NCBI GenBank assembly: GCA_017853275.1
Contig: JAFMJV010000006.1
Location: forward strand, 1 to 64,000
From: Chloroflexota bacterium
GTDB taxonomy: Bacteria; Chloroflexota; Limnocylindria; Limnocylindrales; CSP1-4
Direction: 5' to 3'
Length of the DNA: 64,000 nucleotides
Shown one piece after another: positions 49 through 18,646 of this stretch. Within the stretch, counting starts at the first letter, position 1. Each line of letters starts with the position of its first letter. The translations under genes and the position numbers were made by a program. The notes under the pieces were generated by a model. The model was not told the origin of the DNA, searched no databases, and was given only the letters and a program-made list of their open reading frames with translations.

Positions 49-1034
49 ACGCCGGCAGCCCCCAGGTCGTCACCGTCCTCGGGCCGATCGCCCCCGAGGC
101 GATGGGCAACACGCTCACCCATGACCATGTCCTCATCGACGCCTTCGGGCTCTTCGGGGATTCGTCCTATGCCTGGATCCTCGATGACGAGGATGTGATG
201 GCGCGGGAGCTGGAGCTCTTCCGGGCGGCAGGCGGCGGGACGATCATCGACCCCACCTGCATCGGCCTGAAGCGGCAGCCGGCCGGGATGCGCCGGCTCG
301 CGGAGCGGACCGGCCTCAACCTCGTCATGGGGACCGGCTGGTACCGCGAGCGCTGCTACCCCACCTACATCCGCGAGGAGATGCCGGACCAGCTGGCGGA
401 CCGGATGGTCCGGGACCTCGTCCTCGGCCAGGACGGGACGGACGTGCGGGCGGGCTTCATCGGGGAGATCGGGACGGAGCGCGACTTCATCACGCCCGCC
501 CAGGAGCGCGTCTTCCGGGCCGCCGGCCGCGCCCACCGGCGGACGGGCGTCCCGATCCTCACCCATACGACGCACTTCGGCGAGCTCGCCGTGGAGCAGC
601 TCGCCCTTCTCCGCGAGGAAGGCGTTCCGTCCGACCGGGTCGTCGTCTCGCACCTCGGCGACCGGGTGGGGATCCACTGGTGGCTCCCGATCGCGGAGAC
701 CGGCGCCTACCTGAACATCGACAACCTGGCCTTCGTGGGCGGCTACGCCCCGCTCGAGGTCCGGGCGGACAACGTGGCCGCCTTCTGCGCGGAAGGGCTC
801 GTGGACCAGGTCATGCTGTCGAACGACATCTGCCTCCTGGACCAGCTCGCGCAGTACGGCGGACCGGGCTACGCGAACGTGATCCAGAGCTTCCTGCCGC
901 TCCTGCGGGCGCGCGGCGTCACCGAGGCGCAGATCCACCGGATGACGGTGGAGAACCCGGCGCGCGCCTTCTCCTACGATGCGGAGGGGGCGCGGCAGCG
1001 CGCGCTCGCCGCATGGGGGATGCGCGCGGGCTGA
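45..1034 (+). CDS. Phosphotriesterase-family metal-dependent hydrolase
   Basis: A 329-residue TIM-barrel amidohydrolase of the phosphotriesterase/lactonase group. The metal-binding HxH lies near the N-terminus (T-H-D-H, about residues 25-28), followed by GEIG near residue 141, an HTTH block near 173-176, SHLGD near 203-207 and SND near 260-262. The residue bridging the two metals is Glu (GEIGT) rather than a carboxylated Lys, as in E. coli PHP-type members. Members hydrolyse lactones, esters or phosphotriesters; given the sugar-catabolic surroundings a sugar lactonase is a reasonable guess, but the substrate cannot be read from sequence. Start ATG 45 overlaps the upstream stop. A second relative lies at 53352-54410. 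Confidence 0.85.
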   Translation: MNAGSPQVVTVLGPIAPEAMGNTLTHDHVLIDAFGLFGDSSYAWILDDEDVMARELELFRAAGGGTIIDPTCIGLKRQPAGMRRLAERTGLNLVMGTGWYRERCYPTYIREEMPDQLADRMVRDLVLGQDGTDVRAGFIGEIGTERDFITPAQERVFRAAGRAHRRTGVPILTHTTHFGELAVEQLALLREEGVPSDRVVVSHLGDRVGIHWWLPIAETGAYLNIDNLAFVGGYAPLEVRADNVAAFCAEGLVDQVMLSNDICLLDQLAQYGGPGYANVIQSFLPLLRARGVTEAQIHRMTVENPARAFSYDAEGARQRALAAWGMRAG

Positions 1035-5833: not shown

Positions 5834-5901
5834 GCACCGGGTGCCCGTCCGCCGGCGGCAGGCCCTGCGCCGGGGCCCCGCCCGCGGCTCGGCGGGTGCC
5901 C

Positions 5902-5907
5902 TACACT
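5902..5907 (+). promoter_or_regulatory. Candidate -10 element (TACACT)
   Basis: TACACT, 64 bases before the ATG at 5972, the predicted promoter of the dehydratase operon. A CGTTTGCAG motif related to the shared operator candidate lies 13 bases downstream, at 5921-5929. Confidence 0.4.
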
Positions 5908-5920
5908 CGCGGCCCAGAAC

Positions 5921-5929
5921 CGTTTGCAG
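5921..5929 (+). promoter_or_regulatory. Operator-like motif CGTTTGCAG
   Basis: One mismatch from the CGTTTCCAG found upstream of three other catabolic operons (14756-14768, 49560-49575, 62728-62740). It sits a few bases downstream of the predicted transcription start, where a repressor could block transcription. Weakest of the four sites. Confidence 0.3.
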
Positions 5930-5971
5930 CGCGGGCCCCGGCCGCAGCCACCGTGGGGACGAGGAGGATCG

Positions 5972-7138
5972 ATGGACAGGATCGTCAAGGTCGAGCCGAT
6001 CCCGGTCAGCTACCCGGAGCCGAACGACTTCAACGCGCTCCGCCATCTCTGCCTCGTGAAGATCACGACCGCGGACGGTGTGGTGGGCTGGGGCGAATCG
6101 ATCACCCAGTTCCCGGAGGCGAACTTCGCGACGAAGGCGATCATCGAGGGGATGGCCGAGCGGGTCGTGGGGAAGGACCCCCTCGGGAACATCGCGATCT
6201 GGCACCAGCTGCGCGACAAGAAGTGGTGGTACGGCTACCGCGGCGGGATCGCCAGCTACGCGGTCGCCGCGATCGACATGGCGCTCTGGGACATCAAGGG
6301 GAAGATCCTCGGCGCGAGCGTCCTCGACCTGCTCGGCGGCGCGGTCCACGAGAAGCTCCCCGTGATCGCCTCCTGCCACGCGCACTACGAGGATATCGGT
6401 GCGATGGTGGAGGAGGCCCAGGAGTGGGTCGCCCCCGGCCTCCACGGCGTGAAGGTGGGCCTGGGCAAGCGCGGCAACGCGCGCCTGGGCTATGAGCACG
6501 ACCGGGACGTGGAGTACATGCGCCGGATGCGCGAGGGCCTCGGCGAGAAGGCGATGATCATGCTCGACTGCGGTTGGGCGATCAAGTGGGACGTGATGAC
6601 CGCGGTCCGTCGCGTCCAGGCCTTCGAGGAGTTCGGGCTCCACTGGATCGAGGAGCCCCTCATGGAGTGGGACCCGGAGGGCTACCGGAACCTGCGCGGG
6701 AAGACGACCTCGCTCATCGCCTACGGCGAGAAGGAATGGGACCTGCGCGGCTTCGAGGAGGTCCTCGCGACCGGGACCGTGGACGTGGTCGGCATCGACC
6801 CGGGCCGTGCCGAGGGGATCACCGGCTTCAAGAAGGCGACCGAGCGGGTCGAGTTCTACAAGCGCCAGAGCAACGCGCACGCGTGGTCGAGCGCGATCTG
6901 CTCCGCGGCGAGCCTCGCGGTCAGCTTCAGCACCCCGTCCGCGAAGCTCTTCGAGTTCAAGCCGCTCCGCAACCCGATGCAGCATGACCTCGTCAGCGAG
7001 CCCTTCGAGCACGTGAACGGCTGGGTCTACCCGCCCACGAAGCCGGGGCTGGGCATCGAGATCATCGAGGACGTCGTCCGTCACTACGACAGCGCGACCG
7101 TCCTCGCCGACCCCAAGAAGTTCGGCGCGCTCGCCTAG
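5972..7138 (+). CDS. Mandelate racemase/enolase-superfamily sugar-acid dehydratase
   Basis: A 388-residue enolase-superfamily enzyme of the mandelate racemase subgroup. Metal ligands are Asp199 (MLDCGW), Glu227 (WIEEPL) and Glu253 (GEKEW). General base candidates are Lys161 (GVKVG) on one barrel face and His303 (NAHAW) on the other, the Lys/His pair of the MR subgroup. These enzymes abstract the proton alpha to a carboxylate; bacterial members mostly dehydrate aldonic acids such as rhamnonate, fuconate or galactarate. Exact substrate unknown. The start is well supported by GAGGAGGA just upstream. It heads an operon with two SDRs, a Rid protein and a zinc dehydrogenase, consistent with a sugar-acid pathway. 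Confidence 0.88.
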   Translation: MDRIVKVEPIPVSYPEPNDFNALRHLCLVKITTADGVVGWGESITQFPEANFATKAIIEGMAERVVGKDPLGNIAIWHQLRDKKWWYGYRGGIASYAVAAIDMALWDIKGKILGASVLDLLGGAVHEKLPVIASCHAHYEDIGAMVEEAQEWVAPGLHGVKVGLGKRGNARLGYEHDRDVEYMRRMREGLGEKAMIMLDCGWAIKWDVMTAVRRVQAFEEFGLHWIEEPLMEWDPEGYRNLRGKTTSLIAYGEKEWDLRGFEEVLATGTVDVVGIDPGRAEGITGFKKATERVEFYKRQSNAHAWSSAICSAASLAVSFSTPSAKLFEFKPLRNPMQHDLVSEPFEHVNGWVYPPTKPGLGIEIIEDVVRHYDSATVLADPKKFGALA

Positions 7139-7164
7139 CCCGCCGCGATCAGGAGGAGAGCGAG

Positions 7165-7932
7165 ATGACCTGGAGTGTGGGCGCCGGGCTGGACGGCAAG
7201 GGCGTCATCGTCACGGGTGCGGCGGGCGGCATCGGCCGTGCCGTCGCGGAGGCCTTCGCCCAGACCGGGGCGAAGGTGATGGCCGTCGATCTCGACCAGG
7301 CGAAGGTGGACGAGGTCGTCGCCGGCCTGGCCGGAAGCGGCCACATCGGGGTGGCGGCGAACCTCGGCGACCTCGCGGGGCACGCGGGGCTCGTGGCGCA
7401 GGCGCGCGCGGCCTTCGGGAACCTTTACGTCCTCGCCCACACGGCGGCCGTCCTCCGGCGCCGGAAGAGCCTGGACGAGGTGACCGAGGAGGACTGGGAC
7501 TTCCAGAACGACATCAACGTGAAGGCGACCTTCTTCCTCTGCCGGACCGTGGCGAACGCGATGGTGGAGCAGGGGAACGGCGGCCGGATCATCCTCTTCA
7601 GCTCCCAGGGCTGGTGGACGGGCGGCTTCGGCGGGTCGCTCCCCTACGCGGCCACCAAGGGCGGCGTGACCACGATGAGCCGCGGCCTGGCCCGGACCTA
7701 CGGACCGCACCGGATCACCGTGAACTGCATCTCGCCCGGCCAGATCCACACCCCGATGCTCCTCACCGACCTCCCCACCGAGGTCTACGAGAACATGAAG
7801 AAGCAGACCCCGCTCGGCTACGTGGGCGAGCCGGCGGACTGCGCGGGGCCGGTCGTCTTCCTCGCCTCGGACCACGCCGCCTACATCACCGGGTCGACGA
7901 TCAACGTCTCCGGCGGCTTCCTCATGTACTGA
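7165..7932 (+). CDS. Short-chain dehydrogenase/reductase (SDR)
   Basis: A 255-residue classical SDR. The cofactor motif TGAAGGIG lies near residues 13-20. The catalytic Ser is in LFSSQGWW and the Tyr/Lys pair is YAATK. The C-terminal NVSGGFLMY is the usual SDR ending. It would oxidise or reduce a hydroxyl of a sugar or sugar acid using NAD(P). The ATG is preceded by AGGAGAGCGAG. It lies directly after the dehydratase gene and 7 bases before a second SDR, so the three are likely co-transcribed. Confidence 0.9.
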   Translation: MTWSVGAGLDGKGVIVTGAAGGIGRAVAEAFAQTGAKVMAVDLDQAKVDEVVAGLAGSGHIGVAANLGDLAGHAGLVAQARAAFGNLYVLAHTAAVLRRRKSLDEVTEEDWDFQNDINVKATFFLCRTVANAMVEQGNGGRIILFSSQGWWTGGFGGSLPYAATKGGVTTMSRGLARTYGPHRITVNCISPGQIHTPMLLTDLPTEVYENMKKQTPLGYVGEPADCAGPVVFLASDHAAYITGSTINVSGGFLMY

Positions 7933-7939
7933 GCCGCGG

Positions 7940-8692
7940 ATGACCGCCGCGGAGCTCGAGGGGCGCCGGATCGTCGTGACCGGCGCGGGATCCGGCATCG
8001 GCCGCGCCACGGCCCGTCTCGCGGTCGCGCGCGGGGCGGTGGTGATCGGCGTGGCGCGCTCCGCGGAGGGCAGCGCGGCGATCGCGGCGGAGGGGGCGAT
8101 CCCCTTCCGCGGCGACATGACCCACGCGGCGGACCGCGAGCGCCTCGTCCGGGAGGGCGGGGCGGTGGACGGCCTCGTCATCGCGCACGGCGAGACGCAG
8201 GGCCAGCCGATCGCGGCGGTGACGGAGGCGGACTGGGACCGGCTCCTGGACGCGAACCTCCGCTCCGTCTTCTTCCTCCTCCAGGCCTTCACGCCCCGCC
8301 TCCCGGACCACGGGTCGGTGGTCACCCTCACGTCGGTCGCCGGGAAGACCGGCGCGATCCCGGAGGTGACCGTCTATGCCGCCGCCAAGGCGGGGGTGAT
8401 GTCCCTCACGCGCTCCTTCGCGACCGCGAACGCGGCGCGCGGGATGCGGGTCAACGCGGTCCTGCCGGGGATCATCGATACCCCGATGCAGGAGCGCTTC
8501 CTCGCGCTCAACGCACCGATCCGGGGGATGTCGCCCGCCGCCCTGAACGCGGAACGGCTCGCGATGACCCCGATGCGGCGCGCCGGGACCCCGGAGGAGG
8601 CCGCCGAGGTCATCTGCTTCCTCCTCTCGGACCGCGCGTCCTATCTCACCGGCCAGACGATCAACGTCGCAGGAGGGTTCGTCACGTGGTGA
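7940..8692 (+). CDS. Short-chain dehydrogenase/reductase (SDR)
   Basis: A 250-residue classical SDR with TGAGSGIG near residues 14-21, catalytic Ser in LTSVAGKTG and YAAAK as the Tyr/Lys pair, ending NVAGGFVTW. It is not especially close to the preceding SDR, so the two probably act on different intermediates of one pathway. The last codons overlap the start of the Rid gene (GTG at 8686). No strong ribosome binding site precedes it, suggesting coupling with the gene before. Confidence 0.9.
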   Translation: MTAAELEGRRIVVTGAGSGIGRATARLAVARGAVVIGVARSAEGSAAIAAEGAIPFRGDMTHAADRERLVREGGAVDGLVIAHGETQGQPIAAVTEADWDRLLDANLRSVFFLLQAFTPRLPDHGSVVTLTSVAGKTGAIPEVTVYAAAKAGVMSLTRSFATANAARGMRVNAVLPGIIDTPMQERFLALNAPIRGMSPAALNAERLAMTPMRRAGTPEEAAEVICFLLSDRASYLTGQTINVAGGFVTW

Positions 8693-9099
8693 AGCCCAAG
8701 GTCACGAGCTTCGCGTTCCCCTGGCAGGGGGCGCTCCACTTCAGCCAGTCCGTACGCGTGGAGGACCTCGTCTTCTCCTCCGGCCAGGCGGGCTTCCTGC
8801 CGGAGGGCGGCTTCCGCGCGCCGGACTTCGAGACGCAGTGCCGGCAGGCCTTCGAGAACCTCGACCGGGTCTTCCGGGAGCAGGGCGCCTCCCTCGATTC
8901 CATGGTCCGGCTCAATGCCTATCTCTCCGACGCCGCCCAGTACGCGGACTTCAAGCGGATCCGGGCGGACTATCTGAAGGAGCCCTACCCGGCCTCCACC
9001 GCGGTCGTCGTGGGCTTCGTCTTCCCCGGCATGCTCGTGGAGCTGGAGGGGGTCGCGGTGCGCGGTGGCGCGGTGCGGACCCCGGACGACGGCGCATAG
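8686..9099 (+). CDS. Rid-family protein (YjgF/YER057c/UK114), non-canonical
   Basis: A 137-residue chorismate-mutase-like-fold Rid protein: SQSVRVEDLVFSSGQAGF, then FENLDRVFREQGASLDSMVRLNAYL and the C-terminal VELEGVAV strand. Canonical RidA uses an Arg in the segment reading VARLPKD to bind the enamine/imine; here that stretch reads VVGFVFPG, so the Arg is missing and classical imine deaminase activity is doubtful. It may belong to one of the Rid4-7 type groups linked to catabolic operons. The start is GTG 8686, 9 bases after AGGAGG; it overlaps the end of the SDR gene by seven bases. Confidence 0.85.
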   Translation: MVKPKVTSFAFPWQGALHFSQSVRVEDLVFSSGQAGFLPEGGFRAPDFETQCRQAFENLDRVFREQGASLDSMVRLNAYLSDAAQYADFKRIRADYLKEPYPASTAVVVGFVFPGMLVELEGVAVRGGAVRTPDDGA

Positions 9100-9109
9100 G
9101 GTGCCCACG

Positions 9110-10132
9110 ATGCGTGTCGCCGAGCTGCCGGGGGTGGGGCAGCCGGCACGGATCGCGACCCGTCCGGTCCCCGAGCCGGGCCCCGGCGAGGTCCGCGTCC
9201 GGGTGGAGGCGTGCGGCGTCTGCGGATCGGACCACTTCCTCCAGGAGGGGGGCTTCGGGGCGAAGGTCCCGTGGCCGATCGTCCCCGGCCACGAGGCCGC
9301 CGGGCGGATCGACGCGCTCGGGGACGGGGTGACCGGCTATGCCGTGGGCGACCAGGTCGCGCTCTACTACATCTCCACGCCACCGGGAGACCGCTGGGCG
9401 GCTGCGGGGCGGCCGAACATCAGCCCCCACGTGACGCGGATGGGCGTGGACGTGGACGGCGCCTTCGCGGAATACGTCCTGCGCCCCGTCAGCTCGCTCG
9501 TCCGGCCCCCCGCGCCGGTCCCGCCCGCGGTCCTCGCCGTCCTGACGGACGCAGTCGCCACCCCGCTCCACGGGTTGAAGCGGGTCGCCCACCTCCAGGC
9601 CGGGGAGACGCTCGTCGTCCTCGGGGTCGGCGGGCTCGGATCGTCCGCGGTCCAGCTGGGGAAGGCGATGGGCGCGCGGGTGATCGCGGTGACGCGGTCC
9701 GCGGCCAAGCAGCAGCTGGCGCGGGAGCTGGGTGCAGACCTCGTCATCGGCGCGAACGATGGCGATGTGGTGGCGGCCGCGCGGGAGGCGGCGGGTGGCT
9801 ACGGGGCGGATGTCGTGATCCAGTGCGTGGGCGATGCGCGGGTGGACGAGCAGGCGATCGCGATCGGCGGCCCGGGCGGACGGGTCGTCCTCATCGGCGG
9901 CGCGCTCGAGCCCTTCTCCGTCCGCGCCGCGGAGATCTTCTGGCGCGAGCTCTCCGTCCTCGGCTCACGGGGCTTCATCCCGGAGGACATCCGGGATGCG
10001 ATCGACCTGTGGCTCGCCGGGACGATCTCCGTGGACCACCTCGTCGCCCACACCCGGCCGCTCGTGGAGGCGGATGCCGCGCTCGGCGATCTGCGGGAGG
10101 GCCGGGTCTTCCGGACCGTCCTTCTCCCCTGA
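9110..10132 (+). CDS. Zinc-type medium-chain alcohol/polyol dehydrogenase
   Basis: A 340-residue medium-chain dehydrogenase. The catalytic zinc site is GVCGSDH plus PGHEAAG. The Rossmann motif is VLGVGGLGSSAVQ near residue 175. The lobe that normally carries four structural-zinc cysteines is replaced by a Tyr/Pro-rich segment without Cys (ALYYISTPPGDRW), so the structural zinc is absent. It likely oxidises a secondary alcohol of a sugar or sugar acid with NAD. ATG 9110 is chosen because family homology begins there; GTG 9101 in the same frame is possible. Confidence 0.87.
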   Translation: MRVAELPGVGQPARIATRPVPEPGPGEVRVRVEACGVCGSDHFLQEGGFGAKVPWPIVPGHEAAGRIDALGDGVTGYAVGDQVALYYISTPPGDRWAAAGRPNISPHVTRMGVDVDGAFAEYVLRPVSSLVRPPAPVPPAVLAVLTDAVATPLHGLKRVAHLQAGETLVVLGVGGLGSSAVQLGKAMGARVIAVTRSAAKQQLARELGADLVIGANDGDVVAAAREAAGGYGADVVIQCVGDARVDEQAIAIGGPGGRVVLIGGALEPFSVRAAEIFWRELSVLGSRGFIPEDIRDAIDLWLAGTISVDHLVAHTRPLVEADAALGDLREGRVFRTVLLP

Positions 10133-10190
10133 CGGGGTGCCGCCGGAGACGGCATCATCTGCGCGGGTCCGCAAGGCAGGGAGGAAGGTC

Positions 10191-13142
10191 GTGTCTCGCC
10201 ATCGATCGATCACCGTGGGCATCGCCGCTCTGATGCTCGTCTCCGTGCCGGCCGGCACGCTCGGCGCCGCGCGACCGCCGGCCGCCCGACCCGTGACCGC
10301 CCCTGCGGTGGCGGCCGGCGCGATCGAGCTCCCTGCGGACCCCGCCGCACCCGCCGTCCAGCCGCCGAGCGCTCCGCTCCAGCTCCCCACGACCTTCGAG
10401 AGCCGGAACGGGGTCCTCCACCTGCGGGTGAAGGCCTCCGAGCAGCTCTCCACGATCAACGACGTCCTCTACAAGGGGATGCTGATCTACGACGAGGAGC
10501 TGGTGGACGGGAAGGGGGAGATGACCAAGGGCGACACGAGCCCCTACGTGGCGCCCACCTGGATCATCCACCCCGGCGACACGCTGATGGTGGACTACAT
10601 CAACGACCTCCCCCCGATCCTCTTCAAGGGGGTGGGCGAGACCGAGGCGTCCACCCTGGACCAGCCCCTCAACCTGCACCTCCACGGGCTCTCCGTCTCA
10701 CCCTCCGGGAACAGCGACAACGTCCTGCTCGCGATCCCCCCGGGCCGCTCGAACGCGTACCGCTACCGGATCCCCGCGGACCAGGAGCACGGCCTCTACT
10801 GGTACCACCCGCACATCCACGGGATCACGGACGACCAGGTCTACGAGGGGCTCGCCGGCCATATCGTGGTGGGCCGGCCGGACGGCGACTACCTGGAGCT
10901 GGACGGCCTCCCGATCTACCCGATGATGATCCGCTACAACGTCCAGGAGCCCACGGACGGCCGCCTGATCGACGCCTCCGCCTACCTCCACACCGGGACG
11001 GCGATGCCGCCGCGCGGACAGATGATCTACACCGTGAACGGCCGGAAGATGCCGAGCATCCGGATCAACGCCGCGGACCCGGAGCGGGGCCTGCCGCCCG
11101 AATCGCAGGTCTGGGCCTTCTCGAACATCACCGGCAGCGCAAGCTACGTCCTCGCCCTGGAGGAGGTCCCGGCGGACCAGGCCCGGAACAGCGAGCTCGT
11201 GGGGACCCCCGTGGCGATGACGGTCGTCTCGTATGACGGGACGGCGATGCCCGCACCCCACGTGATCGAGGGCGAGGCCGGCCGCGGCGTCCTCCTCGGC
11301 CAGGGTGGCCGGATGGCGATCCTCGTCCAGGGTGCCTCAACGCCGGGGAACGTGATCCGCCTCATCCAGGTGGAGAACCGCTCCGGGACGGGCGACGCGA
11401 GCGCCTACTACTGGCAGGAGGAGAAGGCGATCCCGGGCTGGCGCGACTACACGCGCACGGTCCTCGCGATCGGCTACACGGACCGCCGGGTGGCCGGGCT
11501 CCACGTCCCCACCCCGCCCCAGCTGACGACCCGTTCCCAGCTCCCGGAGCCGATCCCGGTGACCGGTCCCGCGGAGCGCACCCGGGGCTTCGTCTTCGGG
11601 AGCGTCCTGCCGGCCACCGCCGAGCAGCCGAACAACTTCCCCATCGATGACGGGCTCTTCCCCTACAACCGGATGGATCAGCCGCGCGTGGGGTCGGTGG
11701 AGGACTGGGTGATCGCGAACGCCTCCAGCCTCCATCACCCGTTCCATGCGCACGTCCAGGACGCGGTCCTCCTGGAGGCGATCGCGCCACTCGATCCGGG
11801 CACCACGACCGACCCCGGCGAGTACCCCACGGTCCAGGCCGTGGCCGACCTCGGCCGGGCGACCCCGGACGACCACGAACAGGACATCTTCAACATCCCG
11901 CCCGCGCTCACCGGACCGGGCGGTGACCCGCTCATCGGTCCGGACGGCTCCGTGGTGGAGCCGGGGCGGGTCACCCTGCGCGTGCGGATCCGGAGCTATC
12001 TCGGGGTCTACGTGGAGCACTGCCACCGGCTCCCCCACGAGGACCGCGGGATGATGACCCTCATCCGCTCGATCCCGGACGAGACGATCTTCGTCGTGAG
12101 CGGGCCGAGCCCCGAGGGCACGGCGGTGACCGTCATCCGCGGCGACGACCTGCGGGTCCTGTCGCAGGTGGTCCCCTTCCCCGGCTACCAGGGGCGACTC
12201 CTCACGGCGGTCGGCGATGTGGACGGAGACACCCTGCCGGATATCGCGGTCGCAGGAGCGGAGGGGAGCTCCCGGCCGTGGGCGACCTTCCGGGGCAGCG
12301 CGGCGTGGAAGACGCCGATCGCCTCGGGGGCGGACCTCCCCCTCTGGGGTCCGGTCGGGTCGCTCGCCCTGGGCGACCTGAACGCGGACGGCTATGACGA
12401 CCTCGTGGTGGGTGCCGGAGTCGATGCGGAGCCGCGCGTCCTCCTCCTGGACGGCCGGAACGGCAAGGTCCTCTTCGACCGGCTCGCCTACGACGAGAGC
12501 TTCCGGGGCGGCGTCAACGTCGCCGTCGGCATGCTGCGCGAGGGCGGGCGGAACACGCTCGTCACCGGGAGCGGGCCGGGGATGCCGGCCACGATCCGGA
12601 CCTGGGACTTCGATCTCTTCGGGGATGCCGAGGGCGTGATGCCGGACCTCCACGACCGCCTCGACCCCGTCCAGACGGGCGAGCACGTGATCCCCGAGAT
12701 CACCGGCGGCGTGGACGTGGCGCTCGGCTTCCCCTACGCCATGACCGGCGGGTTCGCCGCGATCGCCGTGAGCGCGCTGGCCGGGCCGGGAGAGGTGATC
12801 CTCCTCCGCGAGGCGGTCCACCACGGTCCGGGGAGCTTCAGCGTCTCGGGCGTCGCCCGGCCGCCGGATCCGAACCCCCACCGCGAGCTCCCGCTGGAGG
12901 AGGTCGACCGGCTCGAGCTCGCGGACGCGGGCTACCCGGCCGGCGCCGATGCCGCCTTCGTGAGCACCCCCACGGGGGCGCGGATGGTCGTCGTGGCGCC
13001 GGACGGAGGCCTGGTGACGGTCTGGGACCGGCCGCTCTCCGAGGAGGCGCTCGCCGCCGGGACGGTCCCCCAGCCGGCGGACGCGCCCTTCGTCCTCGGC
13101 CCGACGCTGGATATCCAGGGAGCGGAGGTCTCCGGCATCTGA
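10191..13142 (+). CDS. Secreted multicopper oxidase fused to FG-GAP repeats
   Basis: A 983-residue exported protein. A signal peptide covers roughly residues 1-26 (GTG start, strong GGGAGGAAGG upstream). The cupredoxin part carries all four copper motifs: HLHG near 163-166, YHPHIHG near 204-210, HPFHAH near 516-521 and HCH-x3-H-x3-GMM near 610-621, so type 1 and trinuclear sites look intact. From about residue 670 there are FG-GAP/VCBS-like calcium-binding repeats (GDVDGDTLPDIAV, GDLNADGYDDLVV), a beta-propeller module usually found in integrin-like surface proteins. The substrate may be phenolics, metals or polysaccharide; it cannot be told. It follows the dehydrogenase by 58 bases and may be the last gene of the 5972 operon. 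Confidence 0.85.
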   Translation: MSRHRSITVGIAALMLVSVPAGTLGAARPPAARPVTAPAVAAGAIELPADPAAPAVQPPSAPLQLPTTFESRNGVLHLRVKASEQLSTINDVLYKGMLIYDEELVDGKGEMTKGDTSPYVAPTWIIHPGDTLMVDYINDLPPILFKGVGETEASTLDQPLNLHLHGLSVSPSGNSDNVLLAIPPGRSNAYRYRIPADQEHGLYWYHPHIHGITDDQVYEGLAGHIVVGRPDGDYLELDGLPIYPMMIRYNVQEPTDGRLIDASAYLHTGTAMPPRGQMIYTVNGRKMPSIRINAADPERGLPPESQVWAFSNITGSASYVLALEEVPADQARNSELVGTPVAMTVVSYDGTAMPAPHVIEGEAGRGVLLGQGGRMAILVQGASTPGNVIRLIQVENRSGTGDASAYYWQEEKAIPGWRDYTRTVLAIGYTDRRVAGLHVPTPPQLTTRSQLPEPIPVTGPAERTRGFVFGSVLPATAEQPNNFPIDDGLFPYNRMDQPRVGSVEDWVIANASSLHHPFHAHVQDAVLLEAIAPLDPGTTTDPGEYPTVQAVADLGRATPDDHEQDIFNIPPALTGPGGDPLIGPDGSVVEPGRVTLRVRIRSYLGVYVEHCHRLPHEDRGMMTLIRSIPDETIFVVSGPSPEGTAVTVIRGDDLRVLSQVVPFPGYQGRLLTAVGDVDGDTLPDIAVAGAEGSSRPWATFRGSAAWKTPIASGADLPLWGPVGSLALGDLNADGYDDLVVGAGVDAEPRVLLLDGRNGKVLFDRLAYDESFRGGVNVAVGMLREGGRNTLVTGSGPGMPATIRTWDFDLFGDAEGVMPDLHDRLDPVQTGEHVIPEITGGVDVALGFPYAMTGGFAAIAVSALAGPGEVILLREAVHHGPGSFSVSGVARPPDPNPHRELPLEEVDRLELADAGYPAGADAAFVSTPTGARMVVVAPDGGLVTVWDRPLSEEALAAGTVPQPADAPFVLGPTLDIQGAEVSGI

Positions 13143-13181
13143 CGGGGCGATCCGCGGCCGGGAACGGTCCCGGGGCGGCGC

Positions 13182-13844
13182 TCAGAGGACCTTGAAGCGC
13201 TCCCAGGCATCCCGGAGGTAGGCGCCCGATTCCAGGAGGAGGCGTGCCCGGTCCTCGGTCTCGGCCTTCTCCACGACCGTGGCGGTGACCGCGGCGGCCG
13301 CATCCGCGGGGACGATGACGATCCCGTCCCGGTCCGCGACGACGACGTCGCCGGGATGGACGAGCACGCCCCCCACCTCGACGGGGAGATCGACCGCGTC
13401 GATCGAGAGGCGCCCGTGGCAGTCCGTGGGGTGGCCGCCACGGACGAAGGCCGGGAAGCCCATCGCGAGGATCCGGGACTGGTCGCGGATCCAGCCGTCG
13501 ATGACGATCCCGGCGGCACCGCGGGCGCGGGCGGCGGTCGAGAAGAGCTCGCCCCAGAAGGCGGTCGGCGCATCGACCTTCCCCACCACGACGTCGTCCG
13601 GGCGGAGCGAATCGACGAAGGCGATCTCCGCGCCATAGGGCGGATCGGACGGGACGGTGACGACCCCGCTGTGGACCGGGCGCGCCCGCCCCACGAGGAC
13701 GGGACCCGCCGGGTCGAGCGGGAGGATCCCCGGGGCCAGCGTCTGGGCGCGCAGCCCGGCCCGGTCGCAGGCGTCCGAGACGACCGCGCTGTAGCCGAGC
13801 CGGCGGAGGGTGGAGACGATCGGGTCGGGGTTCGGTCCGGTCAT
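13182..13844 (-). CDS. RraA/HMG-aldolase-like family protein
   Basis: A 220-residue protein of the RraA-like fold. Diagnostic blocks are GAEIAFVDSLRPDDVVVGKVD, GAAGIVIDGWIRD (the conserved Asp/Arg region) and HPGDVVVADRDGIVIVP near the C-terminus. Relatives are class II pyruvate aldolases (4-hydroxy-4-methyl-2-oxoglutarate or oxaloacetate cleaving) or, rarely, RNase E inhibitors. In this catabolic setting an aldolase or decarboxylase of a 2-keto acid is the better guess. The start ATG 13844 overlaps the stop of the SDR upstream (ATGA), so the two are translationally coupled. Confidence 0.85.
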   Translation of the reverse strand: MTGPNPDPIVSTLRRLGYSAVVSDACDRAGLRAQTLAPGILPLDPAGPVLVGRARPVHSGVVTVPSDPPYGAEIAFVDSLRPDDVVVGKVDAPTAFWGELFSTAARARGAAGIVIDGWIRDQSRILAMGFPAFVRGGHPTDCHGRLSIDAVDLPVEVGGVLVHPGDVVVADRDGIVIVPADAAAAVTATVVEKAETEDRARLLLESGAYLRDAWERFKVL

Positions 13845-14605
13845 GCGTAGAGCTCCGAGCGGATGCCGCCATCGATGAGGATGTCCGAGCCGGTGATGAA
13901 GCCGGCGCGGGGGGAGGCAAGGAAGAGGATCGTCTCGGCGACCTCCTCGGCGGTCCCGAGCCGGTTCACCGGGTGGGCCGCCGCCCATGCCCCGAGGACC
14001 GTCTCGGTCTCGCCGAAGCCGCTCGCCACGTGGCGCACGAGCGGGGTGTCGATCGTGCCGGGGGAGATGCTCACGCAGCGGATCCCCTCGGTGGCGTGGT
14101 CGATCGCGATCGTCCGGGTCAGGCCCTGGATCCCCGCCTTGGCCGCCGCATACGAGGCGGTCGTCTTCTGCGAGGCGTGCCCGAGGATGGACGAGGTGTT
14201 GACGATCACGCCGCCGCCCCGGGCCCGGAGGCGCGGGATCGCGTGGTGGGCGGAGACGAAGTGGGCGGTCAGGTTCACCCGCAGCGAGTAGTCCCAGTCC
14301 TCGAGCGAGAGGACGTCCACCGTGCCGTAGCGGGTGATCCCCACGTTATTGAGGACGATATCCACCCCGCCGAAGGCCGCGTCCGCGGCGCGGTAGGCGG
14401 CCTCGATCGCCGCCGCGTCCGCCACATCGCAGCGGACGTACCGGGCGCGCTCCCCGAGCTCGGCCGCGAGGGCGCTCCCCTCGGCGTCCAGGACGTCACA
14501 GACCACGACGGACGCGCCCTCGCGGTGGAAGCCGCGCGCCGCCGCCGCTCCGATGCCCCGCGCCGCCCCGAAGAGGATCGCGACCCTCCCCTCGAACTCA
14601 CCCAT
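13841..14605 (-). CDS. Short-chain dehydrogenase/reductase (SDR)
   Basis: A 254-residue classical SDR. The cofactor motif is GAARGIG with Phe in place of the usual Thr just before it (LFGAARGIG). NNVGIT is the NAG-like motif, the catalytic Ser is in NTSSILGH, and YAAAK provides Tyr/Lys. The tail LIDGGIRSELYA is typical. It heads a two-gene minus-strand operon with the RraA-like aldolase, divergent from the sugar ABC operon at 14803. A common substrate or regulator is plausible. Confidence 0.9.
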   Translation of the reverse strand: MGEFEGRVAILFGAARGIGAAAARGFHREGASVVVCDVLDAEGSALAAELGERARYVRCDVADAAAIEAAYRAADAAFGGVDIVLNNVGITRYGTVDVLSLEDWDYSLRVNLTAHFVSAHHAIPRLRARGGGVIVNTSSILGHASQKTTASYAAAKAGIQGLTRTIAIDHATEGIRCVSISPGTIDTPLVRHVASGFGETETVLGAWAAAHPVNRLGTAEEVAETILFLASPRAGFITGSDILIDGGIRSELYA

Positions 14606-14693
14606 CGTCCACGCTCCCTCTCACCGGCGGATCGGCCCGGCCGCGGTCCGGAGCGCCATGGACGGCGATGCCGGTGACCGGGGATCCGGGGCG

Positions 14694-14699
14694 AGAGTA
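14694..14699 (-). promoter_or_regulatory. Candidate -10 element (TACTCT)
   Basis: Minus-strand TACTCT, 88 bases upstream of the SDR start at 14605, in the 197-base divergent spacer 14606-14802. Confidence 0.3.
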
Positions 14700-14754
14700 C
14701 CGGCTCGGGCGGCCCCGACGCAGCCCGGCCGCGACACGGGCTTGCGCGGTCGCG

Positions 14755-14760
14755 TATCGT
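14755..14760 (+). promoter_or_regulatory. Candidate -10 element (TATCGT)
   Basis: TATCGT 42 bases before the GTG start of the sugar permease at 14803. It overlaps the operator-like motif at 14756-14768. Confidence 0.45.
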
Positions 14761-14768
14761 TTCCAGAC
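14756..14768 (+). promoter_or_regulatory. Operator-like motif shared with the second sugar ABC operon
   Basis: ATCGTTTCCAGAC; its reverse complement GTCTGGAAACGAT occurs identically at 62728-62740 upstream of the other ribose-type ABC operon. The TGGAAACG core resembles half-sites of LacI-family operators (known for that family). It overlaps the predicted -10 and start of transcription. Confidence 0.5.
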
Positions 14769-14802
14769 CGGGCGACGACCCGATGGAGGAGGAAGGAAGG
14801 AC

Positions 14803-15837
14803 GTGACCGACGCCGGCGTAGCCACGCCCCCCGGGGGTTCGGCGCCGACCGCCCGCCGCCGCTCGTGGCGCAGCCGCCTGCCGGAAGAGGCGGGTGTGAT
14901 CATCGCGCTCGTCGCCCTGATCGCCCTCATCGGCACGGCGAACCCGCTCTTCCTCCAGCCCAAGAGCCTCTTCCAGCTCCTCTCCAGCGGCGCCTTCATC
15001 GGGATGCTCGCGGTCGGGATGGTCTTCGTCATCGTCATCCGGGACATCGACCTCTCCGTGGGCTGGATGTTCAACTTCTCCGCGGTCGTCGCCGGCAAGC
15101 TGATGGTCATGGGCCTCGAGCCCTTCCTCGCGGCGCTGTGCGGGATCGCCTTCGGCGCCTTCCTCGGGCTCATCAACGGGGTCCTCTCCGTGGGCCTGAA
15201 GATCCCCGTGATCATCATCACGCTCGGGACCCTCTCCGCCTTCCGGGGCCTCTCGCTCATCGTCAACGAGTCGAAGCCGATCCTCGCCCCGGACAAGGAA
15301 GCCCCCTTCTTCACGATCTGGGACGGGAAGCTCTTCGATGTCATCCCGAGCGTGGCGGTCGCCTTCGTCCTCCTCGCCGTCGTCCTCCACATCCTCCTTC
15401 AGCGGACCCGCTTCGGGTACCGCGTCCAGGCGATGGGGAGCAACCCGGATGCCGCGCGGCTCGCCGGGATCCCGGTGGACCGGACGCGGATCCTCGTCCT
15501 CGTCCTCATGGGCGCGGTCTCCGGTCTCGCGGGTGTCATCTTCTTCGGCTTCCGCGGCGCGATCGACACGAACTCCGGGGAGAGCTTCCTCCTCCCGGTC
15601 GTGGCCGCGGTGATCATCGGCGGGACGCCGCTCTCGGGCGGCCGGGGGACGATCCTCGGGGCCGTCCTCGGCGCGGTGATCATCCAGGCGATCCAGAGCG
15701 GGATCCTCTTCCTGGGGATCGACGCCAAGTGGTCGATCTTCGTCACCGGCGCGGCGATCATCGTCGCGGTGACGGTCGACCAGCTCGTCCGGCGCCAGCG
15801 CACCCGCAGGGCGCGCGACGTCGTCGACGCGGGGTAG
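14803..15837 (+). CDS. Sugar ABC transporter permease (RbsC/RhaP type)
   Basis: A 344-residue inner-membrane permease of the BPD_transp_2 family. Multiple hydrophobic helices start near residue 30 (VIIALVALIALIGTANPLF). It has the family blocks AVGMVFVIVIRDIDLSVG, IPVIIITLGTLSAFRGLSLI, GSNPDAARLAGIPV (the ATPase-coupling loop) and GGTPLSGGRGTILGAVLGA. It forms the channel for a monosaccharide importer together with the binding protein and ATPase that follow; two permease copies per complex are expected. The GTG start is preceded by a strong GGAGGAGGAAGGAAGG. The unusual gene order is permease first, then binding protein, then ATPase. Confidence 0.92.
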   Translation: MTDAGVATPPGGSAPTARRRSWRSRLPEEAGVIIALVALIALIGTANPLFLQPKSLFQLLSSGAFIGMLAVGMVFVIVIRDIDLSVGWMFNFSAVVAGKLMVMGLEPFLAALCGIAFGAFLGLINGVLSVGLKIPVIIITLGTLSAFRGLSLIVNESKPILAPDKEAPFFTIWDGKLFDVIPSVAVAFVLLAVVLHILLQRTRFGYRVQAMGSNPDAARLAGIPVDRTRILVLVLMGAVSGLAGVIFFGFRGAIDTNSGESFLLPVVAAVIIGGTPLSGGRGTILGAVLGAVIIQAIQSGILFLGIDAKWSIFVTGAAIIVAVTVDQLVRRQRTRRARDVVDAG

Positions 15838-15855
15838 CGCCCGCCCACCAGACGT

Positions 15856-15879
15856 GCCCGGGCGAGGTCCGCGCCGGGC
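15856..15879 (+). other. Intercistronic hairpin before the binding protein gene
   Basis: GCCCGG (15856-15861) pairs with CCGGGC (15874-15879) across a 12-base loop in the 73-base gap between permease and binding protein. Such hairpins often stabilise or separately regulate binding-protein mRNA; that role is inferred only. Confidence 0.3.
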
Positions 15880-15910
15880 GTAGAGCCATCCATCCATCGA
15901 GGAGGAAGGA

Positions 15911-16999
15911 ATGTCGAAGACGATGAGGCTGACGGCCCTTAGCGGCGCCGTCGCCCTCACGGTGGCCGCGCTCGGAGCGCCGGTCGCCGCCCAGGAGCCG
16001 ATCAAGCTCGGCTTCGTCACCCACGTCCTGGGGAACCCGTTCATCCAGCAGATCGTGGACGGGGCCGAGGCCGCCGCCGCCGATCTGGGGATCGAGCTCC
16101 AGGTCACCGGTCCGGAGGACGGCTCCGCCGAGTCCCAGCTCGCGCTCATCCAGGGCCTCGCGGACAGCGGTGTCCAGGGGATCGCGACCTCGGTCCCGGG
16201 CGCCACGCTCGCCGAGCCGCTGAACGCGATCATCGACAGCGGGATCCCGATCGTCCAGTTCAACCTCCTCGACACGGGCGTCAAGGCGCCCTACGTCGGC
16301 GAGCGCTCCACGAACAGCGGCCGGATGCTCGGCATGGCCGTCATCGAGAAGATGGGTGGCGCAGAGGCCGCCGAGGGCAAGGTCGCCGTCGGCAACTGCT
16401 TCCCCGGCTTCCCGGTCCTCGAGAACCGCCAGGCCGGCGTCCTCGAGGCGCTCGCCACCGCCCCCGGCATCACCGTCGTCGGCCCGTCCGACGTCAAGGC
16501 GACCACGACCGACAACTACGCGGCGTGGGAGGCGATCCTCACCGCCAACCCGGACATCAAGGCGATGATCGGCCTGTGCGCGTTCGACGTGAACAGCCTC
16601 GGCCAGCTCCAGGCCGCGAACCCGGACATCCCGTTCATCTCGGCCGGCTATGACCTGACCGCGGAGAACCTGACCCAGCTGAAGGAAGGCAACGCCTACA
16701 TCAGCCTCGGCCAGACCCCGTTCATGCAGGGCTACCTGCCGATCCGCATGCTCCACGACGTGATCACCGGCGCGGTCGATGTCGACCTCTCCGCCGGCGG
16801 CTTCGTCGATGCGGGCACGGAGATCGTCACCGCGGACAGCGTCACGGAGCCCTATGGCCTCCCGGCGCTCTCGTTCGACGAGCTCCTCGCGATCTCGGCC
16901 GACCCGGCCGGTGCGCGGGCCTACTACCAGCCCCTCATCGACGGCGTCATCTCGAACTGGGCCTCCGCGCTCGAGCCGATCGAGAACGAGGCGCAGTAG
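15911..16999 (+). CDS. Sugar ABC transporter substrate-binding protein (periplasmic-binding-protein-1 type)
   Basis: A 362-residue exported binding protein. The signal peptide (MSKTMRLTALSGAVALTVAALGAPVAA) ends without a lipobox Cys, so it is not a lipoprotein by sequence. The mature fold matches the ribose-binding group: KLGFVTHVLGNPFIQQIVDGAEAAAADLG at the N-terminus and a hinge-like SAGYDLTAENL. The ligand is probably a pentose or deoxyhexose; the mutarotase and aldo/keto reductase downstream favour rhamnose, fucose or similar. A strong GAGGAGGAAGGA precedes the ATG. Confidence 0.9.
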   Translation: MSKTMRLTALSGAVALTVAALGAPVAAQEPIKLGFVTHVLGNPFIQQIVDGAEAAAADLGIELQVTGPEDGSAESQLALIQGLADSGVQGIATSVPGATLAEPLNAIIDSGIPIVQFNLLDTGVKAPYVGERSTNSGRMLGMAVIEKMGGAEAAEGKVAVGNCFPGFPVLENRQAGVLEALATAPGITVVGPSDVKATTTDNYAAWEAILTANPDIKAMIGLCAFDVNSLGQLQAANPDIPFISAGYDLTAENLTQLKEGNAYISLGQTPFMQGYLPIRMLHDVITGAVDVDLSAGGFVDAGTEIVTADSVTEPYGLPALSFDELLAISADPAGARAYYQPLIDGVISNWASALEPIENEAQ

Positions 17000-17005
17000 C
17001 AAGCG

Positions 17006-18646
17006 ATGGAGACGGGCGGCGGCACCGGGACGATGGACCGGTCGTCGCCGTCCGCCCTGCCCGGGACGGCGGCCGCGCACCCCGCGGTCGCCGTCTCCGG
17101 ACTCTCGAAGTCCTACGGGGGCATCCGTGCCCTGGTGGAGATGGACCTCGCGGTCGAGCCCGGCACCGTCCACGCGATCATCGGCGAGAACGGGGCGGGC
17201 AAGTCCACCCTCATGAAGATCCTCGCGGGCGCGGTGCGCGCGGACGCGGGGACGATCGCGATCGGCGGTGTGCCGGTCAGCCTCTCCTCCCCCCAGGACG
17301 CCCGTCGCGCCGGGGTGGGGATCGTCTACCAGGAGCTGAGCCTCTTCCCCGAGCGCTCGATCCTCGCGAACCTCTTCCCCGATACGCAGCCCACCCGCGG
17401 TGGCCTCGTGGACACGGATGCGATGCGCCGCGCGGCGCTCCCCGTCCTCGAGCGGATCGGGCTCAACGCGGACCCGGACCGGCTCGTCGGCGACCTCGAC
17501 CTGGATGAGCGCCAGCTCGTGGAGATCAGCCGCGTCGTCCTGGAGCGGCCGCGCGTCCTCATCCTGGATGAGCCGAACTCCGCGCTCAACGAGCGCGAGA
17601 CCGCGCGGCTCTTCGCCGTCCTCCGCGACCTGAAGGCGGAGGGGATGACGATGCTTTATGTCTCCCATCGGCTGGAAGAGGTCTTCGACATCTCCGACCG
17701 GATCACCGTCATGCGCAACGGACGGCTCGTCTGGACGCGCGACCGGGCCGGTCTCACGATCCCGGACGTCGTGAACGCGATGGTCGGGGGGAGCCAGGGC
17801 GACCTCTACCCTCCCCGGCGCACGGCGCAGGAGCGGAGCGCGGTGGCCGTGACCGCCGCGGACGGGACGCCGGCCGGCAGCCTCGAGGTCCGTGACCTGA
17901 CGGTCGGGGACGAGCTCCGGGAGGCCACCTTCACCGCCCGGCCGGGCGAGATCATCGGGCTCGCCGGCCTGGAAGGCTCGGGCGTCGCCACGCTCCTCGG
18001 CGTCCTCTTCGGCACCCGGCAGGCGACCACGGGGAGCGTCAGCTACCCGGACGGGGGCGGCCTCCCCGGCTCCCCCACCGCGGCCTCCCGGCGCGGCGTG
18101 GCGCTCGTCCCGGCGGACCGGCGCCACCAGGGGCTGATGCTCGACCGCAGCATCGTCCGGAACGTGAGCCTCGTCTCCGTGGGGACCCTCCCCTCCCGGA
18201 CCCCGTGGCTCCGGCCCGCGGAGATGCTCGGTGCCGCCCGGCGCCAGATCGAGCGGCTGCGGATCAAGGTCGGCCACCCGGAGGACCCGGCGGGGAGCCT
18301 CTCCGGCGGCAACCAGCAGAAGGTCGTGATCGGGAAGTGGCTCGAGGTGGCCCCCCGGATCCTCCTCCTGGACGACCCCACGCGCGGCGTGGACGTGGGC
18401 GCCAAGCGGGAGATCTACCTCCTCGTCCGGGCCCTTGCGGACGAGGGCCGGATCGTCCTCTTCCGCTCCACGGAGCTCCCCGAGCTCGTGGGCCTCGCGG
18501 ACCGGATCCTCGTCTTCTACCGTGGTGCGCTCACCGAGGAGCTGGACGGGGCCGCCACGAGCGACACCGAGGTCCTGCACGCGATCAACACCGGGCGCCG
18601 CGCGGACGGACCGGACGGCGCCCAAGAGAAGGAGGCGGAACGATGA
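17006..18646 (+). CDS. Sugar ABC transporter ATP-binding protein (RbsA type, two ABC domains)
   Basis: A 546-residue double ATPase. Domain 1 has Walker A GENGAGKST at residues 60-68 and Walker B LILDEPNSAL. Domain 2 has a degenerate Walker A (GLAGLEGSGVATLL), signature SLSGGNQQKVVIGKWL and Walker B LLLDDPTRGVDVGAK, the normal asymmetry for sugar importers. The first signature motif is replaced by DERQLVEISRVV. It powers import by the permease at 14803. The N-terminal 25 residues are low-complexity, so a later start (ATG 17033) is possible. The last codon overlaps the mutarotase start as ATGA. Confidence 0.92.
   Translation: METGGGTGTMDRSSPSALPGTAAAHPAVAVSGLSKSYGGIRALVEMDLAVEPGTVHAIIGENGAGKSTLMKILAGAVRADAGTIAIGGVPVSLSSPQDARRAGVGIVYQELSLFPERSILANLFPDTQPTRGGLVDTDAMRRAALPVLERIGLNADPDRLVGDLDLDERQLVEISRVVLERPRVLILDEPNSALNERETARLFAVLRDLKAEGMTMLYVSHRLEEVFDISDRITVMRNGRLVWTRDRAGLTIPDVVNAMVGGSQGDLYPPRRTAQERSAVAVTAADGTPAGSLEVRDLTVGDELREATFTARPGEIIGLAGLEGSGVATLLGVLFGTRQATTGSVSYPDGGGLPGSPTAASRRGVALVPADRRHQGLMLDRSIVRNVSLVSVGTLPSRTPWLRPAEMLGAARRQIERLRIKVGHPEDPAGSLSGGNQQKVVIGKWLEVAPRILLLDDPTRGVDVGAKREIYLLVRALADEGRIVLFRSTELPELVGLADRILVFYRGALTEELDGAATSDTEVLHAINTGRRADGPDGAQEKEAER

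Follow-up and report, generated by a model that had tools for sequence, protein, structure and literature searches.

Laccases and related multicopper oxidases (MCOs) are represented by the Thermus thermophilus laccase (2xu9) and E. coli CueO (1kv7), proteins of about 440-520 aa. FG-GAP propellers are found in integrin alpha chains, whose propellers have seven blades, and in CRTAC1, with DxDxDG-type Ca2+ loops. In the accessible portions of the open-licence full-text literature, no paper was found in which an MCO is joined to an FG-GAP or propeller domain, or in which such a protein is paired with a molybdenum hydroxylase: in PMC3557214 and PMC10455693 the two terms occur, but apart, and in a survey of bacterial laccases (PMC3192119) none of the terms looked for occur.

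We describe an MCO fused to an FG-GAP-type propeller in a window of 64,000 nucleotides, the whole stretch of DNA that was analysed, from a Chloroflexota bacterium (contig JAFMJV010000006.1). The window protein (P0001) has the same four copper motifs and overall fold as the Thermus laccase and CueO, to which it is about 20-26% identical on structure alignment, and differs from them in its length of 983 aa and in having the C-terminal propeller. Features of the gene and its surroundings are listed in Table 1. GC content by codon position (0.72/0.49/0.95) is coding-type for frames in this DNA. Judging from its sequence the protein is apparently exported; residues 1-52 have low confidence in the AlphaFold2 model, and neither a lipobox nor a recognised wall anchor was found in the protein by sequence inspection or Pfam. 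Artefact or contamination was considered and set aside, so far as this could be tested, on account of the open frame, a composition like that of the neighbours (GC 0.70-0.74 over 10001-13000) and flanks that both match a single contig of a same-genus genome, G001, at 76-81% DNA identity.

Table 1. Positions of the MCO-propeller gene, its parts and the adjoining operon in the window
Feature	Residues	Position	Strand	Basis
Sugar-acid type operon, upstream		5969..10132	+	Pfam; order partly conserved without the MCO in G001 and G005
Shine-Dalgarno-like GGAGGAAGG 5' of the GTG start		10180..10188	+	direct sequence reading
MCO-propeller fusion gene	1-983	10191..13142	+	open frame, 983 aa, GTG start
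Signal-peptide-like N-terminal segment	1 to ~26	10191..10268	+	sequence; boundary is the authors' reading
Three-domain multicopper oxidase part	60-630	10368..12080	+	Pfam; VIA-align to 2xu9
Copper motif 1, HLHG	163-166	10677..10688	+	sequence
Copper motif 2, WYHPHIHG	204-211	10800..10823	+	sequence
Copper motif 3, HPFHAH	516-521	11736..11753	+	sequence
Copper motif 4, HCHRLPHEDRGMM, axial Met at 621	610-622	12018..12056	+	sequence
C-terminal beta-propeller, read as six blades	631-983	12081..13139	+	Pfam FG-GAP, model, fold matches
Blade-2 Ca-binding-type loop, DVDGDTLPD	676-684	12216..12242	+	alignment
Blade-3 Ca-binding-type loop, DLNADGYDD	729-737	12375..12401	+	alignment

The original prediction had called all four copper motifs intact, and all four, which between them serve one type-1 and one trinuclear copper site, are present in the window protein. 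Pfam models Cu-oxidase_3 (1.4e-11) and Cu-oxidase_2 (1.1e-09) both scored over their curated cut-offs. A full-length AlphaFold2 model, built from an alignment of 64 rows (the window protein and 63 of the 80 loci described below), had a mean pLDDT of 75.8 and a pTM of 0.81, with low-confidence stretches in the MCO part at residues 264-274, 398-406 and 415-419. VIA-align returned the Thermus laccase as the top match to this model (Z 33.2, rmsd 2.7, 420 residues aligned over a model range of 60..628), and CueO structures also matched the MCO part at Z about 29-30 (29.1 for 1kv7). The model thus fits a three-domain cupredoxin-type laccase fold. Compared with the plasmid-borne relatives, the oxidase has a shorter middle part.

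A fold search with the full-length model returned MCO folds only, and the propeller was therefore folded separately as the C-terminal 358 residues, using an alignment of 79 rows (the window and 78 of the 80 loci, with L045 and L047 omitted). The resulting model (m9c064078ef7d; pLDDT 79.3, pTM 0.83) has 23 strands, whose order we read as six blades: a b-c-d unit at the N-terminus, then four full units and an incomplete last one. Pfam matched both FG-GAP (PF01839; 2.1e-08, 34.3 bits against a cut-off of 22.1) and FG-GAP_3 (PF13517; 5.3e-07, 30.6 bits against 26.9) to the window protein. Sequence profile and strand order together therefore make the C-terminal region FG-GAP-like by sequence and six-bladed in the model, so that its approximately 350 aa read as a six-bladed propeller. 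The nearest matches to the 79-row profile were CRTAC1 (9etn, E 2e-9) and, at E about 3e-8, integrin alpha-V. By VIA-align the best structural match was the LDLR propeller 3p5c (Z 21.5, rmsd 3.2, 260 residues aligned), with LRP6 (8dvn, Z 20.2), Bacillus phytase (3amr, Z 20.1) and kelch KLHL20 (8cia, Z 19.7) behind it, all four of which we take to be six-bladed propellers; integrins scored about Z 18-19.6. Single Foldseek rows mean little for this fold, since the top row, rhamnogalacturonan lyase YesX, had a TM of 0.37 and an rmsd of 13.7.

Pfam scores over cut-off, with profile and fold matches to integrins, bear out the original prediction of an FG-GAP-type propeller fused to an MCO, and the structure prediction that it had proposed as a check does model the region as a propeller, the blade count reading six. 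The likeness to integrin propellers that it had drawn holds for profile and fold, but strand order gives six blades, not seven. As for the D-x-D/N-x-DG repeats that it had described, the repeat fold is there, but the calcium motif is canonical in two loops only and the other blades are degenerate. In this, and in being fused to an oxidase, the window propeller differs from the integrin and CRTAC1 propellers with which it shares the profile match, the DxDxDG-type loops and, for integrins, the fold match. The blade-2 loop is near-invariant in the 79-row alignment (D676 in 79/79, D/N678 in 78/79, D680 in 77/79 and D684 in 79/79); in the blade-3 loop, canonical in the window, D occurs at position 733 in just 4 of the 79 rows. 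DNA repeats in the propeller region are short two-copy families only, which marks the blades as old and diverged.

The full architecture recurs in three plasmid-borne proteins of about 1050 aa, from Methylocella tundrae (WP_134493131.1), Mycobacterium gallinarum (WP_163738987.1) and Ancylobacter polymorphus (WP_244451221.1), which are 30-32% identical to the window protein end to end and which RefSeq labels generically as 'multicopper oxidase domain-containing protein'. They differ from the window protein in an axial Leu, a longer oxidase middle and a non-canonical blade-3 calcium loop. A four-row alignment of these proteins and the window served as the query for a genome scan, in which tblastn confirmed 138 of 210 pattern matches; the family statistics given here rest on the best 80 of the 138 confirmed loci. 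All four copper motifs are present in 77 of these 80 (in the frames picked), the exceptions being two partial genes (L066, L068) and one picked frame without the motifs (L045), and at least 280 aa follow motif 4 in 78/80. Because architecture and motifs are conserved in 77/80 loci, the observation lies far beyond chance. By phylum label the 80 loci comprise Actinomycetota (40), Pseudomonadota (24), Cyanobacteriota (4, including a mislabelled Rhodococcus record), Melainabacteria (4), Vulcanimicrobiota (Eremiobacterota; 4), Acidobacteriota (3) and Binatota (1). Relatives with the same architecture are both plasmid-borne and chromosomal, and none was found on a phage or viral contig. A simple pattern picked out a lipobox-like N-terminus, with its cysteine behind the signal segment, in 25 of 77 relatives, many of them actinobacterial (e.g. 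L043, L048, L054, L070). The original prediction had named, as one outcome that would refute it, a fusion that is common and already described; with 138 loci it is common, but no prior description was found, and as far as our searches go it is widespread over several bacterial phyla without description in the open-licence literature searched. Multicopper oxidases thereby gain an apparently exported type with a putative built-in module for binding a protein or a surface, hitherto under a generic database name.

Phylogeny was inferred from the MCO part with a quick maximum-likelihood tree of 83 rows, comprising the window, the three plasmid proteins, 76 loci and three ordinary MCOs as outgroups (L045, L047, L066 and L068 were left out). 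The window and three proteins of actinobacterial metagenome-assembled genomes (MAGs), L008-L010, to which it is 45-49% identical, formed one clade with an SH-aLRT of 99, apart from the other 76. The type-1 axial position is Leu in 75 of 79 readable loci and Met in L008, L009, L010 and L036; it is Met in the window protein as well. In general MCO chemistry, Met at this position is expected to lower the redox potential relative to Leu. Met may be ancestral and Leu derived, since all three outgroup MCOs carry Met. The program warned of long branches at the junction of the window with L008 and close to the base of the clade; with these in a quick tree, the root, the donor and the direction are unsure.

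When the flanking frames of the 80 loci were clustered, the dominant neighbour by Pfam was a molybdenum hydroxylase of the xanthine-dehydrogenase (XDH) family, which occurs in the flank of 53/80 loci; an ABM-domain protein occurs in 33/80 and one or the other in 56/80, and many flanks end at contig ends, so that not all absences are real. In M. tundrae the hydroxylase lies directly downstream of the MCO-propeller gene. Three forms were seen. In L026 it is one chain of 1334 aa, in L044 a chain of 907 aa accompanied by an FAD subunit of its own, and in L014 a MoCoBD protein of two domains, whose homologues at L023, L032, L068, L080 and L083 bear twin-arginine N-termini; the forms are mutually dissimilar, mostly at 22-28% identity. 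As a control, 12 genomes drawn from loci having the hydroxylase partner, about 70 Mb in all, were found to contain 74 matches to MoCoBD_1, split genes among them; at this density the 80 loci, which together amount to 1.32 Mb, would be expected to have about 1.4 such matches. The same 12 genomes have 25 ordinary MCO genes, counted after same-gene rows had been merged by hand and the 12 long frames excluded, and 1 of these has a MoCoBD_1 match within 10 kb. That single case is in G529, the genome of L057 (contig C8, 112574-119080), where a second MCO with a 658-aa frame lies about 3 kb from the MoCoBD_1 match beside the MCO-propeller gene. The genome of Mycolicibacterium tusciae (L054) has a single MoCoBD_1 gene, and this one is the MCO-propeller neighbour, about 5 kb away.

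Among 65 loci labelled on the tree (those with the partner or with >12 kb of sequence), the partner label requires at least 6 changes. The 53 loci are not independent, because related mycobacterial loci share ancestry, and the dissimilarity of the partner forms is a better argument for the link than the 53/80 count. The association with molybdenum hydroxylase is the most useful new lead from this work: a recurrent neighbour that gives a concrete handle on function, testable in ordinary soil actinobacteria. Around the window MCO itself no XDH-family or ABM gene was found, the window containing no match better than E 0.095, and no hydroxylase neighbour was seen in the window clade (the window and L008-L010). 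The window's own genome has four MoCoBD_1 genes, all on other contigs, and the MAG containing L008 showed none. With the window clade lacking the neighbour and its own MoCoBD_1 genes elsewhere, the family link is not simply transferable to the window.

The window gene starts 58 nt after a zinc alcohol dehydrogenase (ADH) gene, the last of an upstream series that runs mandelate racemase/enolase-family (MR_MLE), SDR, SDR, RidA and ADH. Downstream, at 13185-18646, minus-strand RraA-like and SDR genes are followed by an ABC transporter (permease, binding protein and two-domain ATPase), which G001 and G005 conserve. The MCO-propeller was found in 1 of 177 genomes at class level, the window's own. 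At phylum level, 3 of 400 genomes matched, namely its own and G345 and G354, whose open frames of 470 and 409 aa led us to take them as ordinary MCOs by length. Three weak matches besides the own genome among 61 relatives covered <100 residues each. For the neighbourhood, window positions 5900-15900 were compared by DNA search with 41 genomes, several of which showed parts of the operon, G001 and G005 matching best: in each of these two, a single contig carries MR_MLE, SDR and ADH together with the permease, binding-protein and ATPase genes from further downstream, with no MCO between ADH and permease by tblastn. Their ADH-permease gaps, of about 6.4 and 4.6 kb respectively, are filled with other sequence. 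In G024 and G010 just the MR_MLE and SDR part is equally similar within the stretch examined. Since relatives keep the operon without the MCO, the gene appears to be a lineage-specific insertion beside a conserved operon, and is best read as an insertion in one sampled genome, not an old operon member. The original prediction had remarked on the unexpected place at the end of a sugar-acid operon; the location is real, but the relatives speak against old membership of that operon. Co-transcription with the operon is plausible from the sequence, the 58-nt gap being the one feature that points to it; a promoter and terminator scan was uninformative (0 found, with 0.1 and 0.3 expected from shuffles). 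The window thus offers an example of a gene of scattered occurrence, probably moved by horizontal transfer, that has been inserted next to a conserved catabolic operon.

Our preferred reading, to which we give a probability of roughly 0.72, takes the protein as a laccase-type oxidase that is exported and docks by way of its propeller; its gene, of a divergent Met-axial branch, would have been acquired and set beside a sugar-acid operon. Its directly observed parts are the sequence, the motifs, the predicted fold, the distribution of the family and the absence of the gene at the matching place in relatives. Counting against it are the shorter middle part of the oxidase, the low-confidence stretches in the MCO model, the long branches of the quick tree and, for co-transcription, the empty promoter and terminator scan. 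The exported, copper-dependent enzyme, of the three-domain laccase/CueO type, would reduce O2 to water with electrons drawn singly from a small donor outside the cytoplasm, perhaps a phenol-like compound or a reduced metal ion. The six-bladed propeller, presumably held together by two Ca2+ loops, of which one is family-wide and the other less common, would most likely offer a face on which a partner protein or a surface polymer docks, and not act as a further catalytic centre. Horizontal acquisition is probable for the window copy, which would have entered behind the ADH gene of a sugar-acid operon already in place and is perhaps co-transcribed with that operon.

As the original prediction supposed, the propeller might instead be a surface or matrix tether; by binding a polymer of the cell wall or of a biofilm, it would hold the oxidase at the cell surface. 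Such a role, which we consider unlikely, would suit the signal-like N-terminus of the window protein and the lipobox-like relatives, some of which are probably membrane-held, and FG-GAP/integrin-type propellers are adhesive in animals; however, relatives with a lipid anchor would need no second one, the window protein has neither lipobox nor recognised wall anchor, and conservation of the propeller over phyla with differing envelopes fits a protein partner at least as well. Another account makes the MCO-propeller a pathway partner of the XDH-family hydroxylase, which would handle the product or the electrons of an extracytoplasmic oxidation, with the window copy acting in trans with one of the four in its genome. 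The excess of hydroxylase neighbours over the control and over ordinary MCOs, the three dissimilar forms (one-chain, with separate FAD subunit and Tat-exported) and the four genes themselves all argue for it. We nevertheless find it rather unlikely, given that the window clade has no such neighbour (though L008 is on a 4.4-kb contig and the L009 contig is also short), that the MAG of L008 showed no MoCoBD_1 gene, and that the one-chain and FAD-type forms carry no export signal, which makes direct electron transfer unlikely for these partners. Quite improbable, in our judgement, is a copper-defence enzyme, that is, a CueO-like cuprous oxidase with an incidental propeller. The fold similarity to CueO, which also has an axial Met, and the plasmid copy of M. 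gallinarum within 10 kb of metal transporters would be in keeping with it, but the CueO equivalog model (NCBIfam NF008205) gave the window protein 53.2 bits, far under its cut-off of 525, and no copper-resistance gene was present among the ten window neighbours scanned.

A wider proposal about the family is possible but on balance doubtful: MCO-propellers may make up the extracytoplasmic side of a hitherto undescribed oxidation system, with a molybdenum hydroxylase, recruited from at least three dissimilar types, as its other side and often an ABM-domain membrane protein besides, and the window clade would be a detached, oxidase-alone branch that changed or retained its axial Met and moved into new operons. 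Within this clade the L009 gene sits in a cell-division/murein cluster with Mur ligase and FtsQ genes. The L010 gene is likewise in such a cluster (MurG-type glycosyltransferase, Mur ligases and FtsZ), where it adjoins genes for a periplasmic binding protein, an ABC ATPase and an FtsX-like permease. In the taxonomic family of the L010 genome, 14 of 85 genomes gave matches. Ten loci were examined there: L110 and L111 are repeats of L010 and L009, L112-L115 are Leu-type relatives in which the sequence examined ends within the propeller, and the open frames of the MCOs L116-L119 span 468-544 aa.
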